From Halioglobus sp. (lineage in GTDB: Bacteria; Pseudomonadota; Gammaproteobacteria; Pseudomonadales; Halieaceae): a DNA stretch of 64,000 nucleotides. This document shows positions 43,540 through 56,893 of the stretch, one piece after another. A program made the position numbers and the translations under genes. The stretch's first letter is position 1. Each line of letters opens with the position of its first letter. The notes beneath the pieces were generated by a model. It had not been told where the DNA came from, searched no databases, and saw only the letters and a program-made list of their open reading frames with translations. The DNA is taken from the NCBI GenBank assembly GCA_020443425.1, contig JAGRIE010000001.1, forward strand, positions 186,001 through 250,000, in the 5' to 3' direction.

Positions 43540-44496
43540 ATGAATTACGACCTCTTCAACGGAGATGCGGACGGCATCTGCGCCCTGCTGCAATTACGCA
43601 AGGCTGAACCGCGCGATGCAACACTGGTGACCGGCGTAAAACGCGACATCAACCTGCTGGGCAAAGTCGACGCCGCGGCCGGTGACCAGATCACGGTGCT
43701 GGATGTATCGATGGACAAGAACCGCGCGGCACTGGACAAAGTGCTGGAGGCGGGCGCCTCCGTCTTTTACGTGGATCACCACTTCCCCGGTGACATTCCC
43801 TCGCATGCGAACCTGACCGCCATTATCAACGAGTCAGCCGATGTCTGCACCGCCGCACTGGTGAATGGCCACCTCAACGGCGCCCACCTCGACTGGGCGG
43901 TTACCGGGGCGTTCGGTGACAACCTGCACGCCACCGCCAGGGCCCTGGCCAAGGGCCTCGATATTTCAGCGGAGGATCTCGCGTCACTTGAGAACCTCGG
44001 CACCTATATCAATTACAACGGCTACGGTCCGGCGATCGACGACCTGCATTTTGATCCCAAGGAACTCTACCTGCGTCTGTACGCCGCGGAAGGTCCGCTG
44101 GATTTCGTGCATAACTCGCCGGACTTTGAAAAGCTGAGCACCGGCTATCGCGAGGACATGGCGATGGCCGAGGCACTGCAGCCACTGCACGCCAAGCCAG
44201 GCAGTGCGGTGTTCCTGTTGCCGGATGAGGCCTGGGCCCGACGCGTCAGCGGTGTCTACAGTAACGACCTGGCCACCCAGAACCCGGCGCGGGCACACGC
44301 GGTGCTGACCCTCAACGCCAAAGGCAATTACCTGGTCAGTGTCAGGGCGCCGATGGAGAACAAGCAGGGTGCGGCGGAGTTGTGTATGCAGTTTCCCACC
44401 GGCGGCGGTCGCGCGGGAGCAGCCGGCATCAACGACCTGCCTGAGGAAAGCCTGCAAGACTTCGTCGATGCGTTCGAGCAGGCCTACAAGGGCTGA
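43540..44496 (+). CDS. DHH-family phosphoesterase, possible PAP phosphatase
   Basis: Metal-dependent phosphoesterase of 318 residues. The DHH core is seen as LFNGDADGICALL (residues 5-17), TVLDVSMDK and VDHHF (Asp79, His80, His81), with a C-terminal DHHA1-type substrate motif GGGRAGAAGINDLP. Known relatives hydrolyse nanoRNA, c-di-AMP/pApA or 3'-phosphoadenosine 5'-phosphate (PAP). Position directly behind cysC-sat makes PAP, the by-product of PAPS use, the most attractive substrate, but this is inference. The ATG at 43540 has only GGTG as a ribosome site. It converges on the AraC gene, overlapping it by 13 nt. Confidence 0.8.
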   Translation: MNYDLFNGDADGICALLQLRKAEPRDATLVTGVKRDINLLGKVDAAAGDQITVLDVSMDKNRAALDKVLEAGASVFYVDHHFPGDIPSHANLTAIINESADVCTAALVNGHLNGAHLDWAVTGAFGDNLHATARALAKGLDISAEDLASLENLGTYINYNGYGPAIDDLHFDPKELYLRLYAAEGPLDFVHNSPDFEKLSTGYREDMAMAEALQPLHAKPGSAVFLLPDEAWARRVSGVYSNDLATQNPARAHAVLTLNAKGNYLVSVRAPMENKQGAAELCMQFPTGGGRAGAAGINDLPEESLQDFVDAFEQAYKG

Positions 44497-45221
44497 TCGA
44501 CTGCGCGGGCGCGCCGGTCAGCACTCGGCGCATGGCCGAACTTGCGGATAAATGCGCGGGTGAAGTGACTGTGGTCGGCAAAGCCGGTCTCCAGCGCAAT
44601 GGTACCGATGGGCTTGTCGGTCTCGCGCAGCAGGCGGCGCGCGTTGTCCAGGCGCACATCGTTAATGTACTGGTGGGGTGTCTTCTGCAAGTGTTTTTTG
44701 AAGCGCCGCTCCAGTGCACTCACGGAAATATTGCAGGCACCTGCCAGTGACGCCACCGAGATACTGCTGCCATAGTGCTGGTAGATGTACTCAATGGGGG
44801 CGCGCAACTCGCGAAACGGTACCGCATCGCCCTCGGTATTGTTCAGGTGCCGGCTGATACCGAAACTGCCGATCACCTGCTCCTGTAAATTGTACACCGG
44901 CCATTTCGAGGTCAGGAACCAGTCGCCCGATTGACCCTCGGCTGTGATCAACTCCAGCCTGTCGTTGACGACGGCCCCGTTCAGTACCTGCACATCGTCA
45001 TTGCAGTAGCGCTCTGCGAGTTCCGCCGGCGCCAGGTCGTAGTCGGTTTTCCCCAACAGGCCGTGCAGCGATGCAAAGCCGAAGCGCTGGTAGAACAGGC
45101 GATTGCCGTAGACAAAGCAGCCGTGTACATCCTTTATCCACGCGTGTGTATCGGGAATGAGGTCCAGCATTGCAAAATTCTGTTCCGCGCCCTGCAGCGA
45201 GGGATAGACAAGTTTTGTCAA
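44484..45221 (-). CDS. PAS-AraC transcriptional regulator
   Basis: A 245-residue regulator with an N-terminal PAS sensor (about residues 15-130: MLDLIPDTHAWIKDVHGCFVYGN ... WFLTSKWPVYNLQEQVIGSFGISR) and an AraC/XylS DNA-binding domain in the last 100 residues (SISVASLAGACNISVSALERRFKKHLQKTP, IGTIALETGFADHSHFTRAFIRKFG). The frame opens at TTG 45221, which has a poor ribosome site; ATG 45170 (MLDLIPDT) is an alternative start. It diverges from the carbohydrate operon and probably controls it. Its DHH neighbour overlaps it at the 3' end. Confidence 0.82.
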   Translation of the reverse strand: MTKLVYPSLQGAEQNFAMLDLIPDTHAWIKDVHGCFVYGNRLFYQRFGFASLHGLLGKTDYDLAPAELAERYCNDDVQVLNGAVVNDRLELITAEGQSGDWFLTSKWPVYNLQEQVIGSFGISRHLNNTEGDAVPFRELRAPIEYIYQHYGSSISVASLAGACNISVSALERRFKKHLQKTPHQYINDVRLDNARRLLRETDKPIGTIALETGFADHSHFTRAFIRKFGHAPSADRRARAVDQPL

Positions 45222-45253
45222 TTTTTGTCGCTCTAGCTGAATTTGTACAAATT
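45213..45253. promoter_or_regulatory. Palindrome and direct repeats in the divergent regulator/operon gap
   Basis: AATTTGTACAAATT (45240-45253) is a perfect 14-bp palindrome. Next to it TTTTGTC occurs at 45213-45219 and 45223-45229, a 10-bp step as expected for tandem AraC half-sites on one helix face. The first repeat overlaps the possible TTG start of the AraC gene. Together they look like an operator region for the AraC protein and perhaps a second, palindrome-binding regulator. Confidence 0.45.
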
Positions 45254-45372
45254 ATAGGTGATTATATTCAAGACTTCGCTCCGCTTTGAGAGGAATATCA
45301 CCACGTTTTAAGCCAAGCATCGCGGCGCAAGCCAAATTCGGGCTCGCCGGCCGTAGCGGGGGAGACACGCAG

Positions 45373-46530
45373 TTGTCCAGAATAAGAATGGGTATGGTAG
45401 GTGGCGGGGAGGGCGCATTCATAGGTGCAGTGCACCGTATGGCCGCCGCGCTCGACAGTGACATCGAACTGGTGTGCGGCGCCTTCAGCAGTGACCCGGA
45501 GCGCTCGCGTCGCTCCGGTGCTGCGCTGTATCTGCCTGCGGGCAGGGTCTACGACGACTACCGTGCAATGATGACGGCAGAGGCCGGACTGCCCGCAGAC
45601 CAGCGGATGCAATTTGTTGCAATCGTCACACCCAATCACCAGCACTTCCCGGTTGCCGAGGCCGCCCTGCGCGCCGGTTTCCACGTCCTGTCCGACAAGC
45701 CGGCCACGCTGAACCTCGACGAGGCGCTGCGCCTGCGCGAGCTGGTGTCGGAAACCGGCTTGCTGTACGGGCTGACCCATACCTACACCGGCTATCCGCT
45801 GGTAAAAGAGGCGCGCCTGCGCATCGCCGCCGGTGACTTGGGCAATATCCGCAAAATCGTGGTGGAGTATTCGCAGGGCTGGCTGGCCGATCGACAGGAG
45901 GAGGCCGACAACAAACAGGCGGCATGGCGACTGGACCCGGCACAGGCCGGGATCAGCAGCTGTATGGGCGACATCGGCGTCCATGCGGCCAATCTCGCCG
46001 AGTATGTCAGCGGCCGGCAGATTCGCGAGATCTGTGCAGACCTGTGCGCGGTGGTCCCCGGCAGGACCCTCGATGACGACGGTACAGTCCTGATGCGTTT
46101 TGACAACGGTGCACGGGGGGTGCTGTGTGCCAGCCAGGTCAGTGTCGGCGAGGAGAACGCCCTCGGTATCCGCGTCTATGGCGACAGGGGGGCACTGGAG
46201 TGGCGGCAGCAGGAGCCGAATACGCTGTGGCTGAAGTGGCCGGACCGGCCCACCGAGATGCTGCGCACCGGCGCGCCTTACCTGTCCGAGTTGGCCGCCG
46301 CCAACACCCGCACACCTATGGGACACCCCGAGGGCTACCTGGAGGCGTTTGCCAATATCTACCAGGCCTTCGCCGGCAGTATCCGGGCGCGCGAGACCGG
46401 CTGTCCCCCCGACGCGCGTGCCAGTGACTGCCCGGGCATCGAATCGGCCATTCGCGGCATGACGTTCATCGAGCTGGCCGTCGCCGCCAGCGACAGCGAC
46501 GTCAAGTGGCACCCGTTTGTCCAGTATTAG
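45373..46530 (+). CDS. Gfo/Idh/MocA-family oxidoreductase
   Basis: NAD(P)-dependent sugar or sugar-derivative dehydrogenase, 385 residues from TTG 45373, which is preceded by GGGGGAG with 8 nt spacing; this start gives the usual MSRIRMGMVGGGEGAFIGAVHR-type opening. The Rossmann site is GMVGGGEGAFIGA, the family catalytic Lys lies in SDKPATLNLDEA, and substrate-domain motifs are THTYTGYPLVKEAR and GDIGVHAANLAEYV. Relatives oxidise C3 or other ring hydroxyls. It is the first gene of the putative glycoside operon; the next gene starts 23 nt later. Confidence 0.88.
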   Translation: MSRIRMGMVGGGEGAFIGAVHRMAAALDSDIELVCGAFSSDPERSRRSGAALYLPAGRVYDDYRAMMTAEAGLPADQRMQFVAIVTPNHQHFPVAEAALRAGFHVLSDKPATLNLDEALRLRELVSETGLLYGLTHTYTGYPLVKEARLRIAAGDLGNIRKIVVEYSQGWLADRQEEADNKQAAWRLDPAQAGISSCMGDIGVHAANLAEYVSGRQIREICADLCAVVPGRTLDDDGTVLMRFDNGARGVLCASQVSVGEENALGIRVYGDRGALEWRQQEPNTLWLKWPDRPTEMLRTGAPYLSELAAANTRTPMGHPEGYLEAFANIYQAFAGSIRARETGCPPDARASDCPGIESAIRGMTFIELAVAASDSDVKWHPFVQY

Positions 46531-46553
46531 ATAACCACAGAGAGGTTCACACC

Positions 46554-47609
46554 ATGTCCCGCATGCAAGGCCCGGCGATTTTCCTCGCCCAGTTCGCCGG
46601 CGCGGAAGCGCCCTTTGATTCGCTGCAGAACATCAGCCGCTGGGCAGGCGACCTCGGTTACCAGGGGGTACAGATCCCGACCTGGGAGTCGGGCCTGATC
46701 GACCTGGAAAAAGCGGCCGAGAGCAGGGATTACTGCGACGAGATAAAGGGCATTTGCGCGGACAACGGCGTCGCGATCTCCGAGCTCTCCACACATCTGC
46801 AGGGCCAATTGGTGGCCGTACACCCCGCCTATAACGCGCAGTTTGACGGCTTTGCCCCGGCGGCGGTACACGGTAATCCCGCCGCGCGCCAGCAGTGGGC
46901 GGTACAACAACTGCTGCTGGCGGCCCGCGCCAGCCGGAACCTCGGCCTGAATGCGCATGCAACATTTTCCGGGGCGCTGTTGTGGCACACTTTCTACCCC
47001 TGGCCGCAGCGGCCACCGGGACTGGTCGAAACCGGGTTCCGTGAACTGGCCGATCGCTGGCTGCCGATCCTGAATGCGTTTGACGACGCCGGTGTGAACC
47101 TGTGCTACGAGATCCACCCGGGCGAAGACCTCCACGACGGGGTCACATTCGAGCGCTTCCTGGAGGCGACAGGTAACCATTCGCGCTGCCATATCCTGTA
47201 CGACCCCAGCCATTTCATGCTGCAACAGCTCGACTACATCCAGTTCATTGACTTCTACCACGAACGTATCAAGATGTTTCATGTCAAGGATGCCGAGTTC
47301 AACCCCAACGGGCGCAGCGGCGTCTACGGCGGCTATCAGGACTGGGTCGACAGGCCTGGCCGGTTCCGCTCGCTGGGCGACGGACAGGTGGACTTTAATG
47401 GTATCTTCAGCCAGTTGGCACGCTACGGCTATGATGGCTGGGCCGTGCTGGAGTGGGAGTGCTGCCTGAAACACCCGGAAGACGGGGCGCGGGAGGGCGT
47501 AGAGTTCATCAAGCAACACATCATCCGCACCACCGACCGCGCCTTTGACGACTTCGCCGGTGGCGCGGCAGACGAGGCCGGCAACCGGCGCATCCTGGGG
47601 CTGGACTGA
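46554..47609 (+). CDS. Sugar phosphate isomerase/epimerase-type TIM barrel protein
   Basis: A 351-residue xylose-isomerase-like (AP endonuclease family 2) barrel. Likely metal ligands are the Glu in LCYEIHPGED, Asp in LYDPSHFM, His in MFHVKD and Glu in VLEWEC. There is no signal peptide. Family members isomerise, epimerise or, in 3-keto-sugar pathways, catalyse elimination and hydration; the exact reaction cannot be read from the sequence. The ATG at 46554 follows AGAGAGG. It is flanked by the Gfo/Idh gene (23 nt) and the MFS gene (36 nt). Confidence 0.85.
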   Translation: MSRMQGPAIFLAQFAGAEAPFDSLQNISRWAGDLGYQGVQIPTWESGLIDLEKAAESRDYCDEIKGICADNGVAISELSTHLQGQLVAVHPAYNAQFDGFAPAAVHGNPAARQQWAVQQLLLAARASRNLGLNAHATFSGALLWHTFYPWPQRPPGLVETGFRELADRWLPILNAFDDAGVNLCYEIHPGEDLHDGVTFERFLEATGNHSRCHILYDPSHFMLQQLDYIQFIDFYHERIKMFHVKDAEFNPNGRSGVYGGYQDWVDRPGRFRSLGDGQVDFNGIFSQLARYGYDGWAVLEWECCLKHPEDGAREGVEFIKQHIIRTTDRAFDDFAGGAADEAGNRRILGLD

Positions 47610-47645
47610 ACCGGGCAACAGAACAATAACACTGGAGTAAACAGT

Positions 47646-48974
47646 ATGACTCAGCAACCGCTGAACCGGAAACGCCTGTACTACGTCGGCAACCTGTCCA
47701 TTTTCATGATCGGGCTGGGCTTTGCCGTGCGGGCAAATATCGCCTCCAACCTGCAGGATGATATCTACAACCAGATCGACCTCGCCAATTCCGCGGCGCT
47801 GGTCGGCGAGGCGCTTGGCGCCACGTTCACCGGGTTTGCACTGACGTTGCTGTTCGGCAGCGCACTGGTCGACCTTATCGGCATGAAACGCATGCTGTTG
47901 CTCGCCGCGCTGGGTTATGTGCTCGGGGCCGCCGGGTTACTGCTGGCGACCACCATGCCGGTAGACGCTGCGGTGGAGACCGTGGTGCTGGTCAGCCTGC
48001 TGCTCACAGGCCTTGGCTGGGGTGCCGTGGAGGCCGCGTCCAACCCGATGGTGGCCGCGCTGTATCCGGAAGAGAAGGCGCACCGGCTGAATATTCTGCA
48101 CGCCTGGTGGCCGGCGGGCATCGTGGTCGGTGGCTTGCTCGGCGTGGGGATCACCAGCATGAGCCTGCCCTGGGAGCTGAATATGCTGGTGCTGATGGTT
48201 CCGTCGCTGGTGCTGGCCTGGATGGTCGCCACCTCGACCTTTCCCGTTACCGAGCGGGTCGCCGCCGGCGTCAGCTACGGCGATATGTTTTCCGAGCTGT
48301 TGAAGCGCCCGCTGTTCTGGGTGTTCTGGGTGTGTATGTTCCTCACCGCCGCGGCGGAACTTGCGCCGGGTCAGTGGGTCAATATCTCACTGTCGAATAT
48401 TGTCGGGATGCAGGGCATCCTGCTGCTGGTCTACGTCAGCGCCCTGATGTTTGTGATGCGCCATTTTGCCGGACCCATCGTCGCCCGTATTTCCTCTGTC
48501 GGGCTGATGTTCGTCAGTTGCCTGCTGGCCGGCATCGGCCTGTACCTGCTCAGCCTCGCCGACTCACCGGCGCTGGCGTTCGCGGCGGCGACAGTCTGGG
48601 GCATCGGGGTCTGCTACCTGTGGCCGACCATGCTGGCTATCGTCGCTGAGCGATTCCCGCGTGGTGGCGCGGTGGCGATGGGGCTGATGGGTTTTGCCGG
48701 CGGCATGTCGATCCAGTTCGTGCTGCCGAAAATGGGAGCCATTTTCGACTCAGCCAAGGCCCAGGCGGCGGGCGGGGTCGATAAACTGGCAACGCTGTCA
48801 CCGGAGGCGATGCAGGAAGTGGTGCGCTACGCATCCGTGGAGTCCTTCCAGTCGGTGGCGTATGTGCCGCTGTTACTGCTGCCCGTATTCGGGGTGATCT
48901 GGCTGGCCGACCGCAGTAAGGGCGGCCACCGTCCGGAGACGATGGGCGCGGCGGGAAGTAATCACCAGCCCTAA
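47646..48974 (+). CDS. MFS transporter, probable sugar or glycoside permease
   Basis: Inner-membrane permease of 442 residues with about 12 transmembrane segments and a large central loop near residues 205-220. MFS marks include LVDLIGMKRMLLLAALGY between helices 2 and 3 and GLGWGAVEAASNPMVAALYPEEKAHRLN, which recalls FHS-type sugar:H+ symporters. It lies inside the carbohydrate operon between two TIM-barrel genes, so it presumably imports the substrate or a product. The ATG follows CTGGAG by 9 nt. Confidence 0.86.
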   Translation: MTQQPLNRKRLYYVGNLSIFMIGLGFAVRANIASNLQDDIYNQIDLANSAALVGEALGATFTGFALTLLFGSALVDLIGMKRMLLLAALGYVLGAAGLLLATTMPVDAAVETVVLVSLLLTGLGWGAVEAASNPMVAALYPEEKAHRLNILHAWWPAGIVVGGLLGVGITSMSLPWELNMLVLMVPSLVLAWMVATSTFPVTERVAAGVSYGDMFSELLKRPLFWVFWVCMFLTAAAELAPGQWVNISLSNIVGMQGILLLVYVSALMFVMRHFAGPIVARISSVGLMFVSCLLAGIGLYLLSLADSPALAFAAATVWGIGVCYLWPTMLAIVAERFPRGGAVAMGLMGFAGGMSIQFVLPKMGAIFDSAKAQAAGGVDKLATLSPEAMQEVVRYASVESFQSVAYVPLLLLPVFGVIWLADRSKGGHRPETMGAAGSNHQP

Positions 48975-48987
48975 CAGGAGTGCTGGC

Positions 48988-49830
48988 ATGAATGTCAGAA
49001 TTGGTATGAACATGTTGCTGTGGGGGATTGAGATAAGCCCCCGGCATATTCCGGTTTTCGAGGAGTTGGCCGCCGCCGGCTACGACGGCGTGGAAATTCC
49101 GGTGGTCGGCCAGACCAGCGCCGACCTCAAAACCATGGCGGCAGCCTGTGATGACCTCGGGCTGGCGCGCACCGCGTCGGCCTTCGTCGGCGCCGATACC
49201 AATCCTGTCTCACCCGACTCCCGCGTGCGCGCCGCTGCGGTGGACAACCTCAAGAAGGGCATAGACGACTGCTGTGTCATCGGTGCCGACCGCCTGATCG
49301 GCGGCCTCTACCAGGCCCACAAATACTTCACCGGCAGCGCCGCCACCGAGCAGGAGTGGCAGTGGTCTGCGGAGTATCTGCGCACCTGTGGTGAGTACGC
49401 ACAGCGAGCCGGGATCCAGCTTGGCCTGGAGTGTCTCAACCGTTTCGAGGCGTTCCTGATCAACAGCTCTGCACAGTGTCGACAGATGGTGGAGCAGGTA
49501 GGCCTGCCCAATGTGGGAGTGCACTACGACACCCACCACGCCAATATTGAAGATCCCGAGCCTCGCCAGGCGCTGTTCGAGATTCGGAATGTGGTGAATC
49601 ATATCCATCTCAGCGAAAGCCATCGCGGCACCCTGGGCACCGGGCAGGTGGACTGGGACGCCAACTTTGCCGGCTTGCGGGAGATCGGTTACGAGGGCTG
49701 GCTGGTGATCGAGGCATTCGGTACCGGCGATCCGGCGCTGGCGGCCGCTGCCAATGTCTGGCGCAACGCCTTTGCATCGCGCGAGGAGGTGTACCGCTCG
49801 GGCATTGAGTTTATTCGGGCCAGGTTATAA
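48988..49830 (+). CDS. D-tagatose/D-psicose 3-epimerase-like TIM barrel protein
   Basis: A 280-residue barrel of the same superfamily as the protein two genes upstream but from a different subgroup, closest in motif pattern to ketose 3-epimerases. Metal ligands are visible as Glu in GLECLNRFE, Asp in VHYDTHHANIED, His in NHIHLSESHRG and Glu in VIEAFG. In ketose epimerases the two glutamates act as acid/base at C3. The ATG follows AGGAG by 8 nt. It is 13 nt behind the MFS gene. Confidence 0.86.
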   Translation: MNVRIGMNMLLWGIEISPRHIPVFEELAAAGYDGVEIPVVGQTSADLKTMAAACDDLGLARTASAFVGADTNPVSPDSRVRAAAVDNLKKGIDDCCVIGADRLIGGLYQAHKYFTGSAATEQEWQWSAEYLRTCGEYAQRAGIQLGLECLNRFEAFLINSSAQCRQMVEQVGLPNVGVHYDTHHANIEDPEPRQALFEIRNVVNHIHLSESHRGTLGTGQVDWDANFAGLREIGYEGWLVIEAFGTGDPALAAAANVWRNAFASREEVYRSGIEFIRARL

Positions 49831-49883
49831 GCGGTAGCACCGCCACGGCCCGCAAAGGCACTAATAACGAAGAGAACGCAAAA

Positions 49884-50141
49884 ATGCTGATATCAACACG
49901 CCAATGGCTGGTCGCGACAGGGATTGCCCTGTATCTGTACTTTGCACTGCCGGCCACGGCGGTCCTGTTCTACGAGCTGTACCACCTGACAAAAATTGAC
50001 GCCATCTACTGGGGTTACAGCGGGTTCAAGGCAGCGGGCTACTATCTGGGTGTCTACGAGTATCGCCTGCTGGTGTGCCTGGGTATCCCGGCCGCCGTAA
50101 TCCTTGTTTCGGTCCTTTTCAAAATGCTACGCAGACGCTGA
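49884..50141 (+). CDS. Small two-helix membrane protein of the glycoside operon
   Basis: An 85-residue protein with two hydrophobic segments (WLVATGIALYLYFALPATAVLFY and LLVCLGIPAAVILVSVLF) separated by a tyrosine-rich loop (IYWGYSGFKAAGYYLGVYEYR), ending in MLRRR. No family is recognised. It lies 9 nt before the gene for the small subunit of the GMC flavoenzyme and could be its membrane partner or electron route to quinone. That role is inferred from position alone. Confidence 0.7.
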   Translation: MLISTRQWLVATGIALYLYFALPATAVLFYELYHLTKIDAIYWGYSGFKAAGYYLGVYEYRLLVCLGIPAAVILVSVLFKMLRRR

Positions 50142-50150
50142 GAGGCAATC

Positions 50151-50768
50151 ATGAATCGACGCGAGTTTTTACAGTGCGCCACGCTGCTGATCACCGGCGC
50201 CAGTGCCAGCCAGTTGGGTTTCAGCCTGAGCGTGGAACAGACGACGTACCTGGCCAAGGCCCCGGACTACAATACGCTGGAAGTGGATTACTTCACGCCG
50301 GCACAGCGCCGGATTGTGGCGGCTATGTCCGATATCATCCTGCCCCGCACCGATACACCGGGCGCCATCGATGCCGGTGTGCCGCAGTACATCGAGCTGA
50401 TGGCGGCGAACTGGCTGGATGCCGGCGAAAGCGCCATTTTTACTGCCGGCCTGCAGGACATGGAAACGCGCATACCCGCCGAATTCGGCGCGCCCTTTGA
50501 CCAGTTGAGTCACGCCCAGCAGTTGCAGATCATGGAGGCGATGGAGGCCGATGCGGAAGACTCCTCATGGTATGAGTTTGCCAATGTGCTGCGTGAATTC
50601 ATCAGCGATGCGCCGTTTATCTGCCAGATCAAGGAGCTGACGATCTGGGGATTTTTCACCTCACAGGAAGGCGCTTCCCAGGTGCTGCGATACGACCCCA
50701 TGCCGATGTACTTTGACGGCGATATCCCGCTTAACAGGGATGACAGCAGCTGGTCATCCCCCCTCTGA
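50151..50768 (+). CDS. Gluconate 2-dehydrogenase subunit 3-like protein
   Basis: Small subunit of a GMC-type membrane dehydrogenase, 205 residues. The N-terminus MNRREFLQCATLLITGASAS is a Tat-like leader with the twin arginine, which in related systems carries the leaderless flavoprotein across the membrane. The body shows the family pattern FTPAQRRIVAAMSDIILPRTDTPGAIDAGV and a C-terminal WGFFTSQEGASQVLRYDP. The gene precedes the GMC subunit by 17 nt. A cytochrome c subunit, usual in such complexes, is missing here. Confidence 0.85.
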   Translation: MNRREFLQCATLLITGASASQLGFSLSVEQTTYLAKAPDYNTLEVDYFTPAQRRIVAAMSDIILPRTDTPGAIDAGVPQYIELMAANWLDAGESAIFTAGLQDMETRIPAEFGAPFDQLSHAQQLQIMEAMEADAEDSSWYEFANVLREFISDAPFICQIKELTIWGFFTSQEGASQVLRYDPMPMYFDGDIPLNRDDSSWSSPL

Positions 50769-50785
50769 CACGGTGACAGATAATA

Positions 50786-52492
50786 ATGATTGCAACCAAA
50801 CAGTATGATTTTGACGCCATTGTGGTCGGCTCTGGCATCTCCGGCGGCTGGGCCGCAAAGGAGCTCACGGAGAAAGGGCTGAAGGTGCTGGTGCTGGAGC
50901 GCGGCAAGCCGCTGCAGGCGGGCAGCGGCTATCTCGGCGAGCACGCCCCCAACTGGAAGCTCCCCTACCAGGGTAAAAAACCCCGGCAGCTCTATGCCGA
51001 GGACTACCCGGTACAGAGCAAAGTCACGCACTCCTTCAATGAGGCAACGCGGCAGTTCTGGAACAACGACAGGGAGAACCCCTATGCCATGGACGAGGGA
51101 AAGCCGTTCATGTGGGCGCGGGCCGATGTGGTCGGCGGCCGCTCCCTGATCTGGGGGCGCCAAACCTACCGCTTCAGTGAAATGGATTTCAAGGCCAATG
51201 CCACCGATGGACACGGCATCCCCTGGCCCGTGGGGTATGAAGACATTGCGCCCTGGTACAGCTATGTTGAGAAGTTCGTCGGTATCAACGGCAAAAGCGA
51301 GGGCCTGCCGCAACTGCCCGACAGCGAAATGCAAAAGCCCATGCCCTGGTTTGCGCTGGAGGAGACCATCAATGAGCGGCTTAAAAAGAAAGCGCCGGAT
51401 GTCACACTCACCAATGCCCGCGTTGCCATACTGACCGAGGACCTGCCCGGACGCAGCGCCTGCCACTACTGCGGCCCCTGTCCGCGAGGCTGTTCCACCG
51501 GCAGCTATTTCAGCTCGCAAAGTTCGACACTGCCGGCGGCGCGGGCGACAGGCAACCTGACACTGCGGCCCAATTCCGTGGTCGAGCGTCTGGAGTATGA
51601 CAAAGACAGCAATGCCATCTCCCGTGTCCATGTCATTGACGCTGAGACAAAAGAACGGTTGGCGTTCAGCGCCCGTGTTGTTTTCCTCTGCGCCTCCACT
51701 GTCGGCAGCACACAGATCCTGATGAATTCCGCCACCGATGAGTTCCCGAACGGCCTCGCCAACAGCAGCGGGGTGCTCGGCCGCTATATGATGGATCACA
51801 CGCTGGGGGTCAGCGGCGCCGGACTGTTCCTCGATAATATGGACAGTTACTACCACGGCAACAGGCCTACGGGACTTTACATTCCCCGTTTCAGGAACCT
51901 GGACGGTCAGGATGATGATGCGGACTTCATCCGTGGCTACGGCTACCAGACGGCGACGTTTCGCATGGACTGGCAGATGGGTATCAATACCAAGGGCTTT
52001 GGCGCAGAACTGAAGGACTCGCTGCGCAAGCCAGGGCCGTGGGTCTTTGCACTGATGGGATTTACCGAGTGCCTGCCGAACGCCTCCAACCGCATGTACC
52101 TGAGCAAGGACAAGGTGGATCGCTACGGCATTCCGCAGGTGGTGTTTGATTTCGAGTGGGGTGAGAACGAGGTGAAACTGCGCCGCGACGCGAAAATCCA
52201 GGCAGACCGGCTGATGAAAGCGGCGGGCGCCACCGTGCTGCTGGCGGGCGACGACGCGATGTCCATGCCGGGAGAGGGCATTCACGAAATGGGGACCGCA
52301 CGCATGGGCGCAGACCCGCGGGAATCCGTATTGAATGCGTATAACCAATCGCACGATATCCCCAACCTGTTTGTGACCGACGGCTCCTTCATGACCTCCG
52401 CCTCGTGTGTGAATCCGTCGCTCACCTATATGGCATTCACGGCACGAGCCTGTGACTACGCCGTACAACAGATGGCGGAGGGTGTGATTTGA
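50786..52492 (+). CDS. GMC-family FAD oxidoreductase, large subunit
   Basis: Flavoprotein of the gluconate/glucoside dehydrogenase type, 568 residues, without its own signal peptide. The FAD site is DAIVVGSGISGGWAAKELTEKG (near residue 10); a four-cysteine cluster CHYCGPCPRGC (about residues 229-239) may hold an iron-sulfur centre as in FAD-glucose dehydrogenases; the C-terminal catalytic pair is His in IHEMGTARMG and Asn in SCVNPSLT. Likely it oxidises a sugar ring hydroxyl, possibly at C3, in the periplasm with its twin-arginine small subunit. Its stop overlaps the GH3 start. Confidence 0.88.
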   Translation: MIATKQYDFDAIVVGSGISGGWAAKELTEKGLKVLVLERGKPLQAGSGYLGEHAPNWKLPYQGKKPRQLYAEDYPVQSKVTHSFNEATRQFWNNDRENPYAMDEGKPFMWARADVVGGRSLIWGRQTYRFSEMDFKANATDGHGIPWPVGYEDIAPWYSYVEKFVGINGKSEGLPQLPDSEMQKPMPWFALEETINERLKKKAPDVTLTNARVAILTEDLPGRSACHYCGPCPRGCSTGSYFSSQSSTLPAARATGNLTLRPNSVVERLEYDKDSNAISRVHVIDAETKERLAFSARVVFLCASTVGSTQILMNSATDEFPNGLANSSGVLGRYMMDHTLGVSGAGLFLDNMDSYYHGNRPTGLYIPRFRNLDGQDDDADFIRGYGYQTATFRMDWQMGINTKGFGAELKDSLRKPGPWVFALMGFTECLPNASNRMYLSKDKVDRYGIPQVVFDFEWGENEVKLRRDAKIQADRLMKAAGATVLLAGDDAMSMPGEGIHEMGTARMGADPRESVLNAYNQSHDIPNLFVTDGSFMTSASCVNPSLTYMAFTARACDYAVQQMAEGVI

Positions 52493-54477
52493 GCGCGTCA
52501 GACAAACAGGCTCGGGTAGACGAGTTGCTGCAGGCCCTGAGCCTCGATGAAAAGCTGTCACTGTGTGCCGGCCAGAGCCTGTGGAAGACCAAGGCGGTGG
52601 AAAGACTGGGGATTCCGCAGTTCCGGTTGACCGACGGACCCCGCGGGGTGGGGTTCCATTCCAGCGGCAAGCGCTGCACCGCCTTTCCCTCCGGCATCGC
52701 GCAGGCGGCCAGCTGGGATGTGGAACTGATGGCGCGGTTCGGCGCAGCCCTGGGTCGGGAGTGCAGGGCCGCCGGGGGGCGGACTATTCTCGGGCCCGCG
52801 ATCAATATCACCCGCACACCACTGAACGGTCGCACCTTCGAGTACCTCAGCGAGGACCCGTACCTGAACAGCCGTCTGGTTGTCCCGATAGTGAAGGCCG
52901 CACAGGAGCAGGGCGTGGCTGCCTGCGTCAAGCATTTTGCCGCCAATAACCAGGAGACCAACCGGGTGCGTGTAAGCGCAGAAGTCAGCGAGCGGGCACT
53001 GCAGGAAATCTACCTGCCGGCATTCAAGGCGGCGGTCGAGGAGGGTGACGCATGGTCAATCATGGCGGCGTACAATTCGGTCAACGGCGTACCGGCCTGC
53101 GAGAACGCAGACCTGTTAAAAACCAGGTTGCGCAAGGAGTGGGGCTTCAAGGGCTTTGTGGTGACTGACTGGTTCGCCGCGCGCGGCACCACCAGCACAG
53201 CCGCCTGCGTCAAGGGGGGACTCAGTCTCGACATGCCGGGCAAGGGCTCGCGCTACCGTTTCAAAACACTGAAAGCCAGCTTCGAGCGCGGCGAGTTCAG
53301 TGAGAGTGAAGTGGATGAAAACCTGCGTGGGCTGCTGTACGCGATGGTTGCAACCGGCCATCTCGACCCGGCGCCGCTGCGCGGGCAGCGCAATACCAAA
53401 GCGCACCAGTTACTGGCGCGGGAAATGGCAGAGGCGGGCATCACGCTGCTGAAAAATGCCGGTGGGTTACTACCGCTGGACCAGCGCCGGGTTCGCAAGA
53501 TCGCCGCTGTCGGCCCCAAACTGAAAAAACGCAACTGCCTGCCGCTGTGGGGCGGCAGTGCAGGGGTGTGGCCGCCCTACGAGGTGACGCCCTGGCAGGG
53601 CCTGCGGCAGGAGAACCGCGGGCGTTTTGAATGGGTGCCAGAGCCGGCAGAGGCCGATGCGGTACTGGTGTTTGTCGGCCTCAGCCATCGGCCCGGACAG
53701 GACTCCGAGGTGAAGGATCGCAAGCAACTGGAGTTGGCCGCAGAACAGGAGCAGCTCATCCGCGAGACCGTCGCGGTGAACCCCAATACTATCGTCGTAC
53801 TGATCAACGGCAGTCCGGTCGCAATGCCCTGGGTCAACGATGTGCCGGCGATTCTCGAGTGCTGGTACCCCGGCATGGAGGGCGGGGCCGCGATTGCCAG
53901 GACACTGTTTGGTGATAACAATCCCTCCGGTAAACTGCCTGTGACCTTTCCGCGTTCACTCCGCGATTGCTCGGCGCACCGCACCCCAAAGACCTTCCCC
54001 GGTACCCGTCAAACTGTTGTGTACGAAGAGGAGTTGATGGTCGGCTACCGTCATTTTGACAAGCGTGACATCGAACCGCTGTTTCCGTTCGGACACGGCC
54101 TGTCCTATACCACGTTTGCCTACAGTGAGTTTGCAGCCAGCGCTGAACGGCTGTCACCGACAGATACGCTGACGCTGTCGCTGACCGTGACCAATACCGG
54201 TGCCGTTAGTGGCGCGGAAGTGGTGCAGTTGTACGTGGCGGATCACGACCCCGGTGACGACAGGCCGCCCCAGAGCCTGAAGGGCTTTGCCAAAGTGCAG
54301 CTCGAACCGGGAGAGTCGCGCCCACTCACCCTGCAATTGCCGATGGCTGACCTCAATGTGTTCTGCCCCGACACTAACGCGTGGCGGGCGAAACCCGGCG
54401 CCTACAGTGTCCGGGTCGGCAGTTCCTCCCGCGACATTCGCCTCGCCGCCGATTTCGAGCTGAGCGGCCCGGCCTGA
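52489..54477 (+). CDS. Glycoside hydrolase family 3 beta-glucosidase-like enzyme
   Basis: Retaining glycosidase of 662 residues with a TIM-barrel domain (DGPRGVGFHS, CVKHFAANNQETNR), a second alpha/beta domain and a C-terminal fibronectin III-like domain (about 580-660). The nucleophile is Asp227 in GFVVTDWFAARG. No signal peptide is seen, so it acts in the cytoplasm on imported glycosides. The start is TTG 52489 overlapping the GMC stop, with GGAGG seven nt before it. It closes the operon; a 149-nt gap follows. Confidence 0.9.
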   Translation: MSASDKQARVDELLQALSLDEKLSLCAGQSLWKTKAVERLGIPQFRLTDGPRGVGFHSSGKRCTAFPSGIAQAASWDVELMARFGAALGRECRAAGGRTILGPAINITRTPLNGRTFEYLSEDPYLNSRLVVPIVKAAQEQGVAACVKHFAANNQETNRVRVSAEVSERALQEIYLPAFKAAVEEGDAWSIMAAYNSVNGVPACENADLLKTRLRKEWGFKGFVVTDWFAARGTTSTAACVKGGLSLDMPGKGSRYRFKTLKASFERGEFSESEVDENLRGLLYAMVATGHLDPAPLRGQRNTKAHQLLAREMAEAGITLLKNAGGLLPLDQRRVRKIAAVGPKLKKRNCLPLWGGSAGVWPPYEVTPWQGLRQENRGRFEWVPEPAEADAVLVFVGLSHRPGQDSEVKDRKQLELAAEQEQLIRETVAVNPNTIVVLINGSPVAMPWVNDVPAILECWYPGMEGGAAIARTLFGDNNPSGKLPVTFPRSLRDCSAHRTPKTFPGTRQTVVYEEELMVGYRHFDKRDIEPLFPFGHGLSYTTFAYSEFAASAERLSPTDTLTLSLTVTNTGAVSGAEVVQLYVADHDPGDDRPPQSLKGFAKVQLEPGESRPLTLQLPMADLNVFCPDTNAWRAKPGAYSVRVGSSSRDIRLAADFELSGPA

Positions 54478-54626
54478 TCGCCGCAATCACTGCGGTTCAA
54501 AGTCGTAGACCCGTCCGGCCCTAAGTAGCGCCCACGGCGCTGCAGCCGGTGTTGCGCTTGCGTGATTGCAGGCCGTTTGGTATCACTGTCGCAGCAAATA
54601 TTTCCATAACTCAAAAGAGAAATTAT

Positions 54627-55730
54627 ATGTCTACGAACGATGCCGAGAAGAAAGTGCTCGATGGGGCTGCCTGGGATGAATTCTGTGATGCGCTGAAAGA
54701 GGCCGGGAACATTGTCCGCAGCCCCGCTGCGCCGCAGGATGCATTTAACCAGGCGGAGGGCTACCGTTACCTCGCGCGCCTGTTGCGAGGCGGCCTGGAG
54801 AGCTTCCTGGAATTCCGCGACCCCTTGTTCCCGCAGCTGCGCTGCGGTGCTCACGAGACCATTAAACTCGGCGCCGACAACCCTGACAACCGCTATGAAA
54901 GTGCGCCACTGAGCCCGAAACACGATTACCGGATTACCGGTAACCGGGGCACAGTCGACTACCTCGGCTTCAGCACCATCATCAACAAGTACGCCTCTGG
55001 CGGCACCATGGAAGTGACTGGCCACATCGATACGCGGCAGATGGAGATCGGGCCCAATGGCGAACTCGAGCTCATTATCAGCCGCAACAAACAGCCGGGG
55101 AACTGGCTGCCGATGGGGCCTGAGACCAACTCCATCAATGTGCGCCAGACCTTCCAGGATCGCGTCAATGAAAAAGCTGCCGATTTGAAGATCGAGCGTA
55201 TCGGCGCCAGCGATGAGCGACCCGAACCGTTCTCCGCCGAGAAACTGCTGCGCGGGCTGCAGGGTGCGGTTGGCTTTGTGAAAGGTTCGGCCACCATGTT
55301 TGAAAACTGGTCGGAGAGTTTCCTGCCCACCATGAACCAACTGCCCCCGGCGGACCAGGCCTACTGCCAGCTGATCGGTGGCGACCCCAATATCTTCTAT
55401 TTCCACAGCGCCTGGCAGTTGGCCGACGATGAGGTGTTCATTATCGATGCACCCGAAATACCAGAGTGCCAGACCTGGAACTTCCAGCTGGACAACTGGT
55501 GGATGGAATCGCTCGATTACCGCCATCACAGAATCCATGTCAACAAACACACCGCCCACTACAACAGCGATGGCAGTGTGCGGGTGGTGGTGTCCCACAC
55601 TGATCCGGGCGTTCCCAACTGGATAGAGACCGCCGGTCACAATATGGGGACGATGTGCTGGCGCTGGATCGGTGCCAAGCATCACCCGGAACTCAAGACC
55701 CGGGTGGCGAAACTGGCGGACCTGAAATGA
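54627..55730 (+). CDS. DUF1214-domain protein coupled to a sulfotransferase
   Basis: A 367-residue protein from ATG 54627. The second half matches the DUF1214 pattern (WQLADDEVFIIDAPEIPECQTWNFQLDNWW, and SHTDPGVPNWIETAGHNMGTMCWRW at the end), and the N-terminal half is specific to proteins of this length. No function is established; relatives often lie near lipid, steroid or envelope genes. No signal peptide. The stop overlaps the sulfotransferase start by 4 nt, so the products probably act together. The 149 nt upstream contain only a weak 5-bp hairpin at 54480-54494. Confidence 0.8.
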   Translation: MSTNDAEKKVLDGAAWDEFCDALKEAGNIVRSPAAPQDAFNQAEGYRYLARLLRGGLESFLEFRDPLFPQLRCGAHETIKLGADNPDNRYESAPLSPKHDYRITGNRGTVDYLGFSTIINKYASGGTMEVTGHIDTRQMEIGPNGELELIISRNKQPGNWLPMGPETNSINVRQTFQDRVNEKAADLKIERIGASDERPEPFSAEKLLRGLQGAVGFVKGSATMFENWSESFLPTMNQLPPADQAYCQLIGGDPNIFYFHSAWQLADDEVFIIDAPEIPECQTWNFQLDNWWMESLDYRHHRIHVNKHTAHYNSDGSVRVVVSHTDPGVPNWIETAGHNMGTMCWRWIGAKHHPELKTRVAKLADLK

Positions 55731-56893
55731 CTGACAGCAGCGTGAGCTACGATGCCGATGCATTGATCGCCGAGGCCAAACAGCAGACCGGCTTCGACGA
55801 TTTCGGCGACCTGCCCTTCAGGGAGGGGCTGGAGGTCCTGCTGGAAACCTACGACCGCAATGTGAAAGACCCCGAGGGCCGCCAGCGCTGTCGCGACCGG
55901 GCAGTGATGCTGCTGGCGACCCGGCTGAAATGCGAAAATGCCTTCAAGACGATACCGGAGATTGCCGAGCAGAAGATCGAGGCGCCGGTGTTCGTCACCG
56001 GTTTACCGCGCTCCGGCACCTCGGCGCTGTTGAACCTGCTCGTGGCGGCCCCCGACAATCGCGGCCTGCTGCAGTGGGAGGTGCAGTTCCCCGACCCGTG
56101 GCCGGACAGCGTTCCCGGACAGGAGGATCCGCGCTATCCCTATCTGGTGAAAGCGCTGGAGCAGACGCGCAACTCGGATTTCGCCAAGATCCACTACATT
56201 GACGCCGATACGCCGGAGGAGTGTGTGCTGTTGCACGCGTATGCGTTCGACGGTGTACAGCTGGGTTTCGAGATCATGCTGGAGCCATACCGCAGCTGGT
56301 TGTTGCAGCGCGACCTGGAGCCGCTCTACGCCTACCAGAAGCGCCTGATGCAGATGCTCAACTGGCGCAACCCCGGCAAGCAGTGGATGCTGAAAGCCCC
56401 GGCGCATATGTGGGGTATCGATGCGATTCTGAAGGTATTCCCGGATGCACGGTTCGTCTGGTGCCACCGGGATCCGCAGCTGGTCGTGCCCAGTATCAAC
56501 AGCATGAACAAGGTCGTCATGGGGATGTACGCGGGCGATATCAGTCACCTGGATGCCGGCGAGATCGGCAGGGCAGTGATGGAGTGGTATGCGATGTCAC
56601 TGGAGCAGGGCCTGGCGCAACGTGAGAAGTTGCCGCCCGAGCTCTTCGTGGACTGCTCACAGCGCGAGTTTGTCGAGCAGCCCATGGCCGTAGTCGAAAA
56701 GGTGTACAAGGCGTTTGGGCTCGCGCTCAGCGACGAGTCGCGCGCCGCCATGCAGGCGCATGTGGATGCCAATCCCAAGGGCAAGCACGGCAAGCACGAG
56801 TACAACCTGGCGGAGTACGGCCTGACGGAAGCGATGATAGCGGAACGCTTTGCGTTCTACACAGGGGATGCGCGCTGGCCCATTTCGGATTAA
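55727..56893 (+). CDS. PAPS-dependent sulfotransferase
   Basis: A 388-residue sulfotransferase-family protein. The 5'-phosphosulfate loop GLPRSGTSALLNLL begins near residue 92, the 3'-phosphate region is visible in CHRDPQLVVPSINSM, and LKAPAHMWGIDAILKVFPDARFVWCHR is typical of bacterial sulfotransferase_3 members. The acceptor is unknown; small hydrophobic alcohols, sterols, lipids or carbohydrates are all possible. It starts on the stop of the DUF1214 gene (ATGA). PAPS can be supplied by cysC-sat 12 kb upstream. Confidence 0.85.
   Translation: MTDSSVSYDADALIAEAKQQTGFDDFGDLPFREGLEVLLETYDRNVKDPEGRQRCRDRAVMLLATRLKCENAFKTIPEIAEQKIEAPVFVTGLPRSGTSALLNLLVAAPDNRGLLQWEVQFPDPWPDSVPGQEDPRYPYLVKALEQTRNSDFAKIHYIDADTPEECVLLHAYAFDGVQLGFEIMLEPYRSWLLQRDLEPLYAYQKRLMQMLNWRNPGKQWMLKAPAHMWGIDAILKVFPDARFVWCHRDPQLVVPSINSMNKVVMGMYAGDISHLDAGEIGRAVMEWYAMSLEQGLAQREKLPPELFVDCSQREFVEQPMAVVEKVYKAFGLALSDESRAAMQAHVDANPKGKHGKHEYNLAEYGLTEAMIAERFAFYTGDARWPISD

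Follow-up and report, generated by a model that had tools for sequence, protein, structure and literature searches.

A conserved Halieaceae operon with a predicted 3-keto route of glycoside utilisation and a ketose 3-epimerase-family barrel as candidate eliminase

Organisation and conservation of the operon

A stretch of 64,000 nucleotides (nt) of Halioglobus sp. DNA (G000:C111:186001-250000, hereafter the window), from a 4.33-Mb draft genome that is 94% complete, encodes between positions 44484 and 54477 an AraC-PAS regulator divergent from eight close-packed genes (Table 1). Domains were assigned by Pfam-type family searches, which recovered every gene and domain that an earlier note, made from the sequence without database searches, had named in this arrangement. 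With a probability of roughly 0.6, we consider that these genes serve glycoside utilisation by oxidation, elimination, hydration and reduction, whereby a GMC flavoprotein oxidises, a TIM barrel of 351 amino acids (aa) hydrates and an oxidoreductase of the Gfo/Idh/MocA family (Gfo) reduces. A second barrel, of 280 aa, is a candidate for the elimination step.

The genes from Gfo to GMC are separated by gaps of 23, 36, 13, 53, 9 and 17 nt, which bears out the 9-53 nt given in the note, although the coordinates contain only one 4-nt overlap, between GMC and the GH3 glycosidase gene, and not several. The start of Gfo lies between 45286 and 45388. Scans of the sequence for promoters (2 matches, against a mean of 3.0 in shuffled sequence) and terminators (9 matches, against 8.3) gave no excess over chance, so that the presumed co-transcription is argued from spacing and synteny.

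Among genomes of the genus the hydratase is present in 16 of 18, the two without it (G003 and G010) being 74% complete. Three of the 16 loci, a set that includes the window, are interrupted by contig ends within the stretch (L029, L033 and L036), leaving 13 that span it. The order Gfo-hydratase-MFS-(barrel)-membrane protein-Tat (twin-arginine) subunit-GMC is kept in all 13, although extra genes interrupt it in L031 and L039; the 280-aa-type barrel is found in 11 and is missing from L027 and L039. We conclude that this is a real conserved operon. For comparison across a wider range, 49 loci were scanned, 48 of them with a hydratase gene; the genomes were picked by kinship or by a hydratase match and are biased to Halieaceae, and two of them supply two loci each. 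The family-wide hydratase search gave matches in 32 of 140 genomes, one of which (G430, at a contig end) was left out of the locus set, and the class-wide search gave matches at 12 places in 10 of 369 genomes, with a fragment in G250 likewise left out. Signal peptides and membrane helices were judged by eye throughout.

The co-conservation expected of a single operon does not extend to GH3, which stands immediately 3' of GMC in 1/13 spanning genus loci, that of the window alone; in L037 and L039 a GH3 gene lies near the operon, beyond another AraC gene. GH3 is an add-on to the operon. Its product has no visible signal peptide and retains a TDW motif, which we take to be the nucleophile motif, and this, together with the 4-nt overlap with GMC, would fit a scheme in which a cytoplasmic GH3 cleaves the glycoside hydrolytically and the 3-keto genes merely recycle oxidised sugar. 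Since the remainder of the operon is kept in the genus without GH3, we regard that scheme as very improbable.

An AraC regulator directly opposite Gfo is also found in L026, L027, L028 and L043, and in L031, L033, L037, L038 and L039 one precedes a xylulokinase gene (xylB); the locus scan found none in L030, L034 and L035.

Table 1. Genes of the window between 44484 and 54477, with the basis of each assignment.
Feature	Coordinates	Strand	Basis or remark
PAS-AraC transcriptional regulator	44484..45221	-	HTH_18 + PAS_4; divergent; 13-nt overlap of its 3' end with the upstream gene
Gfo/Idh/MocA oxidoreductase, proposed NAD(P)H-dependent 3-keto-glucose reductase	45286..46530	+	family match; synteny with hydratase
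Predicted 2-hydroxy-3-keto-glucal hydratase, TIM barrel, AP_endonuc_2, 351 aa	46554..47609	+	identity to PDB 8ro4
MFS permease (MFS_1), proposed importer of oxidised glycoside or sugar	47646..48974	+	family match
280-aa barrel, AP_endonuc_2, ketose 3-epimerase family; candidate for elimination or epimerisation of the 3-keto-glycoside	48988..49830	+	profile, model, residues
85-aa protein, two hydrophobic stretches (by eye), proposed GMC dehydrogenase membrane subunit	49884..50141	+	position, alignment
Tat-type small subunit, Gluconate_2-dh3 (gluconate 2-dehydrogenase subunit 3 family)	50151..50768	+	PF13618, E 1.1e-29; RR motif
GMC flavoprotein (GMC N+C), proposed periplasmic glycoside 3-dehydrogenase	50786..52492	+	PF00732/PF05199
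GH3 glycosidase (GH3 N+C+Fn3), lineage-specific addition	52489..54477	+	family match; rare in genus loci

Hydration, reduction and oxidation

The 351-aa barrel matches PDB entry 8ro4, titled '2-hydroxy-3-keto-glucal hydratase' and presumably a protein from Agrobacterium, with an E value of 4e-176 and 69.5% identity over 347 aa. Hydration is assignable to this predicted hydratase by close homology, and at such identity the 3-keto redox-elimination-hydration route proposed in the note is well supported, while its description of the pathway as unassigned no longer suits the hydration step. An inositol enzyme was considered for the same barrel and rejected (IolE match weak, 69 bits where the cut-off is 290; 8ro4 match strong). 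Of the two barrels, for which the note had raised inositol or ketose epimerase clades as the counter-case, the 351-aa one is no inositol enzyme and the 280-aa one is indeed a member of the ketose 3-epimerase family.

An operon described from Agrobacterium by Bitter et al. in 2023 encodes the dehydrogenase GlycDH, a flavoenzyme, the Mn eliminase AtOGE, the hydratase AtHYD, for which the evidence is preliminary, and a Gfo protein; the flavoenzyme oxidises, and Gfo reduces 3-keto-glucose to glucose as the last step (PMC10628242). The window locus resembles this Agrobacterium tumefaciens arrangement, GlycDH-AtOGE-AtHYD-Gfo, in possessing a GMC dehydrogenase with a Tat-signal partner (at family level, Table 1), a hydratase of the same kind and a Gfo reductase candidate paired with it by gene adjacency. 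It differs in having no AtOGE-type Mn eliminase with a His-x-His motif and in encoding a ketose-3-epimerase-family barrel, an MFS permease, a small membrane protein and GH3. GlycDH itself we take to be a GMC protein. The levoglucosan genes lgdA-B1-B2-C of Bacillus smithii are described as specifying the same four steps, with LgdC as the final reductase and two barrels that carry sugar phosphate isomerase annotations; unlike in the window, the first oxidation is there attributed to an NAD-dependent Gfo-type enzyme, and ABC transporter genes lie in the region (PMC7676230).

The association of Gfo with the hydratase is close, since 46/48 hydratase loci from alpha- and gammaproteobacteria (exceptions L159 and L161) have a Gfo gene at most 250 nt from the hydratase and on the same strand, and 47/48 contain some Gfo gene anywhere in the locus. 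The window Gfo, whose closest solved structure is 3v5n, is 45% and 61% identical to the hydratase-adjoining Gfo of Rhizobium ruizarguesonis and Pseudoalteromonas, respectively. Homology and synteny indicate that it is probably the reductase of 3-keto-glucose. The note had regarded a periplasmic (GMC) together with a cytoplasmic (Gfo) oxidation as the unusual point of the locus, and both families are reported able to make 3-keto sugars (PMC10628242, PMC7676230). However, the published Agrobacterium operon has the same GMC and Gfo pair, so that the two are expected together, one oxidising and the other reducing; its Gfo, like LgdC of Bacillus smithii, is described as reducing 3-keto-glucose (PMC10628242, PMC7676230), and Gfo is tied to the hydratase in 46 of the 48 loci, of which only 24 have GMC in the stretch examined. 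Two separate C3 oxidations therefore seem to us extremely unlikely.

The best solved relatives of the GMC protein are the large subunits of fructose and glucose dehydrogenases, and its motifs include a Cys cluster at 226, HEMGTARMG at 500 and NPSLT at 543. It has no visible signal peptide of its own; the gene immediately upstream encodes the Tat-type subunit, with an N-terminal RR motif (MNRREFLQ). As judged by homology and synteny, GMC probably oxidises the glycoside at C3.

Between the 280-aa barrel and the Tat subunit lies the gene for the 85-aa protein, in which 20 of 85 residues are invariant in 14 aligned sequences, and which occurs directly 5' of the Tat subunit at 18/18 places in the 49 loci (17 at a score of at least 100 bits, and L170 at 34 bits). 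It is restricted to Halieaceae among the genomes searched; in 369 gammaproteobacterial genomes the only intact match is in the window's own genome, together with one 42-residue match elsewhere containing two internal stops. The window protein gave no Pfam or NCBIfam match at 0.01 and no PHROGs match at 1, and 4/14 relatives touch DUF6219 marginally (best E 0.006). In the Novosphingobium locus no 85-aa protein is annotated and the gap from barrel to Tat subunit is only 60 nt. Its position and conservation suggest that the protein may be the membrane anchor or the electron exit of GMC. A second Tat-subunit-GMC pair, without an 85-aa protein match, is found in L038 (1042-4145) behind a 219-aa SDR, and a similar SDR stands within the operon in L031 and L039.

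The 280-residue barrel and the elimination step

Profile searches relate the 280-aa barrel to D-allulose, L-ribulose and D-tagatose 3-epimerases at about 1e-58 to 1e-48, the next characterised relative being YcjR, a 3-dehydro-D-guloside 4-epimerase (5e-33; 32% identity over 140 aa). Its AlphaFold model has a mean pLDDT (per-residue model confidence) of 96, and the closest folds are 5zfs and 8yeb (TM, a fold similarity score, 0.94; 32% identity). Residues E148, D181, H207 and E242, which we take to be metal ligands, and E154, H184 and R213, presumably substrate residues, align with both structures, so that the barrel carries the residue set of a ketose 3-epimerase, and all seven are invariant in 30 sequences, including that of the window, from at least four phyla by title. 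Solved D-allulose, D-tagatose and L-ribulose 3-epimerases (5zfs, 8yeb, 3vyl and 2ou4) thus share with it the fold (TM up to 0.94) and all the metal and substrate residues compared; they differ in being about 30% identical to it and in having titles that name free ketoses as substrates. A tree with only four references sets the barrel family apart with a support of 0.43. The AtOGE-type structure 8bvk, although included in the PDB set, was not among the 46 PDB matches of the barrel up to E 10 nor among its 34 profile matches at 1e-5.

If the barrel is the eliminase, the pathway would run as follows. GMC, exported together with the Tat subunit and kept at the membrane through the 85-aa protein, would oxidise C3 of a β-glycoside in the periplasm, and the MFS permease would import the 3-keto product. 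The 280-aa barrel, by means of its metal and glutamates, would then take the proton beside the C3 ketone, whereupon the aglycone would leave to give 2-hydroxy-3-keto-glucal; the 351-aa barrel would add water to form 3-keto-glucose, and Gfo would reduce this to glucose. We infer what may happen in transport, in elimination by the 280-aa barrel, in the role of the 85-aa protein, in the substrate and in any participation of GH3.

The distribution of barrels was compared across the 48 hydratase loci with cut-offs of 150 bits for the ketose-3-epimerase type (DTE) and 130 bits for the AtOGE type. The 280-aa type is found in 18/48 and the AtOGE type, with His-Asn-His, in 7/48 (its Rhizobium member is related to AtOGE, 8bvk, at E 2e-39), and no locus has both (0/48; Fisher p 0.036, uncorrected for kinship). 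Weaker matches, under the cut-offs, are found in L049, L155 and L159 (DTE) and in L054 (AtOGE type). The case for the 280-aa barrel as eliminase is made by this failure to share a locus with the AtOGE type, by its invariant metal and glutamate residues and by the action of YcjR on 3-keto-glycosides, and we put it somewhat below an even chance.

Several observations weigh against this assignment. The metal and catalytic residues of AtOGE are given as His132, His134, Asp163 and His189, with Glu233 co-ordinating weakly (PMC10628242); the 280-aa barrel, which is closest to ketose 3-epimerases, reads E148-C-L150 where the AtOGE type has the His-Asn-His motif that includes the catalytic His134. Where hydratase and GMC occur together (24 loci), the 280-aa type is present in 14, the AtOGE type in four and neither in six (L027, L039, L040, L047, which has a DUF1080 gene, L163 and L170), so that a pathway without such a barrel seems possible. 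Three of these six (L027, L039 and L040) retain the membrane protein, matched at full score, together with the Tat subunit and GMC. Only one of their genomes, G016 (that of L027), encodes a His-Asn-His barrel outside the locus; its gene is flanked by an esterase-like gene and one for an AMP-binding enzyme and belongs to no sugar cluster. In the genome of L039 (G013) a His-His-His barrel is encoded in a uronate cluster, next to KduI- and SDR-like frames, and a profile search of that of L040 (G032) found no AtOGE-like barrel; weaker relatives of the 280-aa family were found in G016 (177 bits) and G013 (172 bits) and none in G032. DUF1080, a family of 3-keto-disaccharide hydrolases, shares a locus with the 280-aa type in L166 and L168. 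The window's own genome has a distant AtOGE-like barrel, of the His-His-His kind, at G000:C99:49846-50640 (L179:9846-10640). Finally, LgdB2, a hydratase in this kind of pathway, is reported to eliminate as well (PMC7676230), and a separate eliminase may therefore be unnecessary.

An alternative is a scheme in which the 280-aa barrel epimerises a 3-keto sugar at C4 or C2, in the manner of YcjR, making a non-gluco 3-keto-glycoside usable for the hydratase and Gfo, with elimination left to the hydratase itself or to an enzyme encoded elsewhere. Membership of the ketose 3-epimerase family with catalytic residues kept, YcjR as next characterised relative, the reported bifunctionality of LgdB2 (PMC7676230), the absence of the barrel from L027, L039 and L040 and its co-occurrence with DUF1080 in L166 and L168 all agree with it. 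In the E. coli ycjQRS cluster (L172), the related 3-keto-glycoside enzyme YcjR is a 4-epimerase placed between two 3-dehydrogenases, and the 18-kb stretch has no annotated gene for GMC or a hydratase; the window operon, by contrast, has no such partner dehydrogenase pair, and its locus holds no separate eliminase for an epimerase to rely on. Epimerisation of a 3-keto sugar is a possible role for the barrel if the pathway itself is accepted, at odds well short of even, and pathway and epimerase together are unlikely.

The distant barrel on contig C99 clusters with KduI, SDR, GH88 and an MFS_2 transporter, and the same barrel is found beside such frames in G013; it is perhaps an uncharacterised step in the breakdown of unsaturated uronates. 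The absence of an AtOGE-type barrel from the window's own genome, which a single-sequence search had indicated, was dropped as a claim when the profile search found this one. Replacement of a lost 280-aa barrel by DUF1080 or AtOGE-type barrels elsewhere was also considered and showed no clear pattern. A cluster for lactose in Caulobacter crescentus is described as comprising lacABC, DUF1080 and a transporter, two sugar epimerases and a sugar reductase (PMC9007349); it differs from the window in having DUF1080 near the dehydrogenase. No operon protein of the window matches PF06439 (DUF1080). Two DUF1080 proteins are encoded on other contigs of the genome, both large and with a cytochrome c domain, at G000:C167:80943-84206 (L180:4943-8206; 1087 aa) and G000:C33:76734-80693 (L181:4734-8693; 1319 aa, also with DUF7133). 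Both genes lie near a TonB receptor gene, that on C33 after two Gfo genes separated by an Nramp-type transporter, and it is possible that the proteins represent an all-in-one periplasmic 3-keto system.

Relatives of the 280-aa barrel were also compared by locus for the best 80 of 190, scored by matches to reference proteins, with Pfam run on the genes of L118, L084 and L079. In 19 of these 80, from Bacteroidota by title, an MFS permease of the window kind (47-53% identity) precedes the barrel. Novosphingobium has the order ThuA-MFS-barrel-Tat subunit-GMC, and in the Pfam-scanned L118 (2912-12027), from a marine Bacteroidota member, a ThuA-domain protein follows MFS-barrel; the opposite strand there encodes a barrel, a levoglucosan-dehydrogenase-like Gfo, a Zn-dehydrogenase, an NAD-epimerase and a second Gfo. 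Genes of like sizes are found in L106, L107 and L117, and the set would represent a sugar pathway of marine Bacteroidota that has yet to be assigned. The cross-phylum relatives and YcjR may leave room for a role of the barrel on 3-keto-glycosides.

Substrate, product and significance

In 10/16 genus loci, the window included, a xylose isomerase gene (xylA) stands just before Gfo (L032 ends before that place), and nine have xylB; these relatives may feed on D-xylose released by the operon. The window's own genome gave no xylA match, while 17/57 genomes of the same search have one, although a missing piece is possible in a draft that is 94% complete, and its best xylB-like match is 26% identical, as against 55-100% in five other genomes searched. 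With xylA and a close xylB not found, glucose is a likelier product than xylose in the window strain. A route from D-allose through D-allulose to D-fructose via rhamnose isomerase, guessed from the relatives' 444-aa barrel, was rejected because NCBIfam identifies that barrel as xylose isomerase. No paper on 3-keto-xylose or a 3-keto-xyloside was found in the literature searched, most subscription journals lying outside it.

The xylose genes bear on the proposal that the 280-aa barrel acts as a genuine ketose 3-epimerase, which would salvage by-products after isomerisation (D-ribulose to D-xylulose or D-allulose to D-fructose) in an operon that serves the genus mainly for pentosides. Its nearest solved folds, D-allulose and L-ribulose 3-epimerases, and the xylA and xylB genes that open the relatives' operon accord with this, but the window's own genome has the barrel without a detected xylA or close xylB, and the Bacteroidota relatives pair with MFS where XylA was not found and XylB matches are weak (22-23%). 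A ketose epimerase is an improbable identity for the barrel, and in combination with the pathway the proposal is more improbable still.

Immediately 3' of the window operon (54549-56893) lie genes that encode a DUF1214 protein and a member of the sulfotransferase family (PF13469), and a DUF1214 gene stands immediately 3' of GMC in 7/12 other spanning genus loci. Sulfatase genes adjoin the operon in L043 (1291-4243) and lie at the ends of L031 and L038, which suggests sulfated algal glycans as a source of the glycoside.

The route of oxidation, elimination, hydration and reduction is already known; what seems new is that the eliminase has apparently been exchanged for a member of another family, and that the oxidase comes with an extra small membrane protein. 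On the reading preferred here, the operon would extend the recently worked-out non-hydrolytic cleavage of glycosides to marine Halieaceae, with parts swapped. That it comprises a further 3-keto-glycoside eliminase arisen from the ketose 3-epimerase family, a Halieaceae-specific GMC membrane subunit and, in relatives bearing xylAB, a non-hydrolytic pathway for xylosides is a tentative proposal, which we think doubtful as a whole; on it, a protein family in industrial use would gain a natural role in the catabolism of 3-keto sugars. Should the 280-aa barrel prove to eliminate or to epimerise 3-keto-glycosides, the D-allulose/D-tagatose 3-epimerase family would acquire a link to a catabolic setting open to tests with simple substrates, and 3-keto-xylosides would be suggested by the relatives that bear xylAB.

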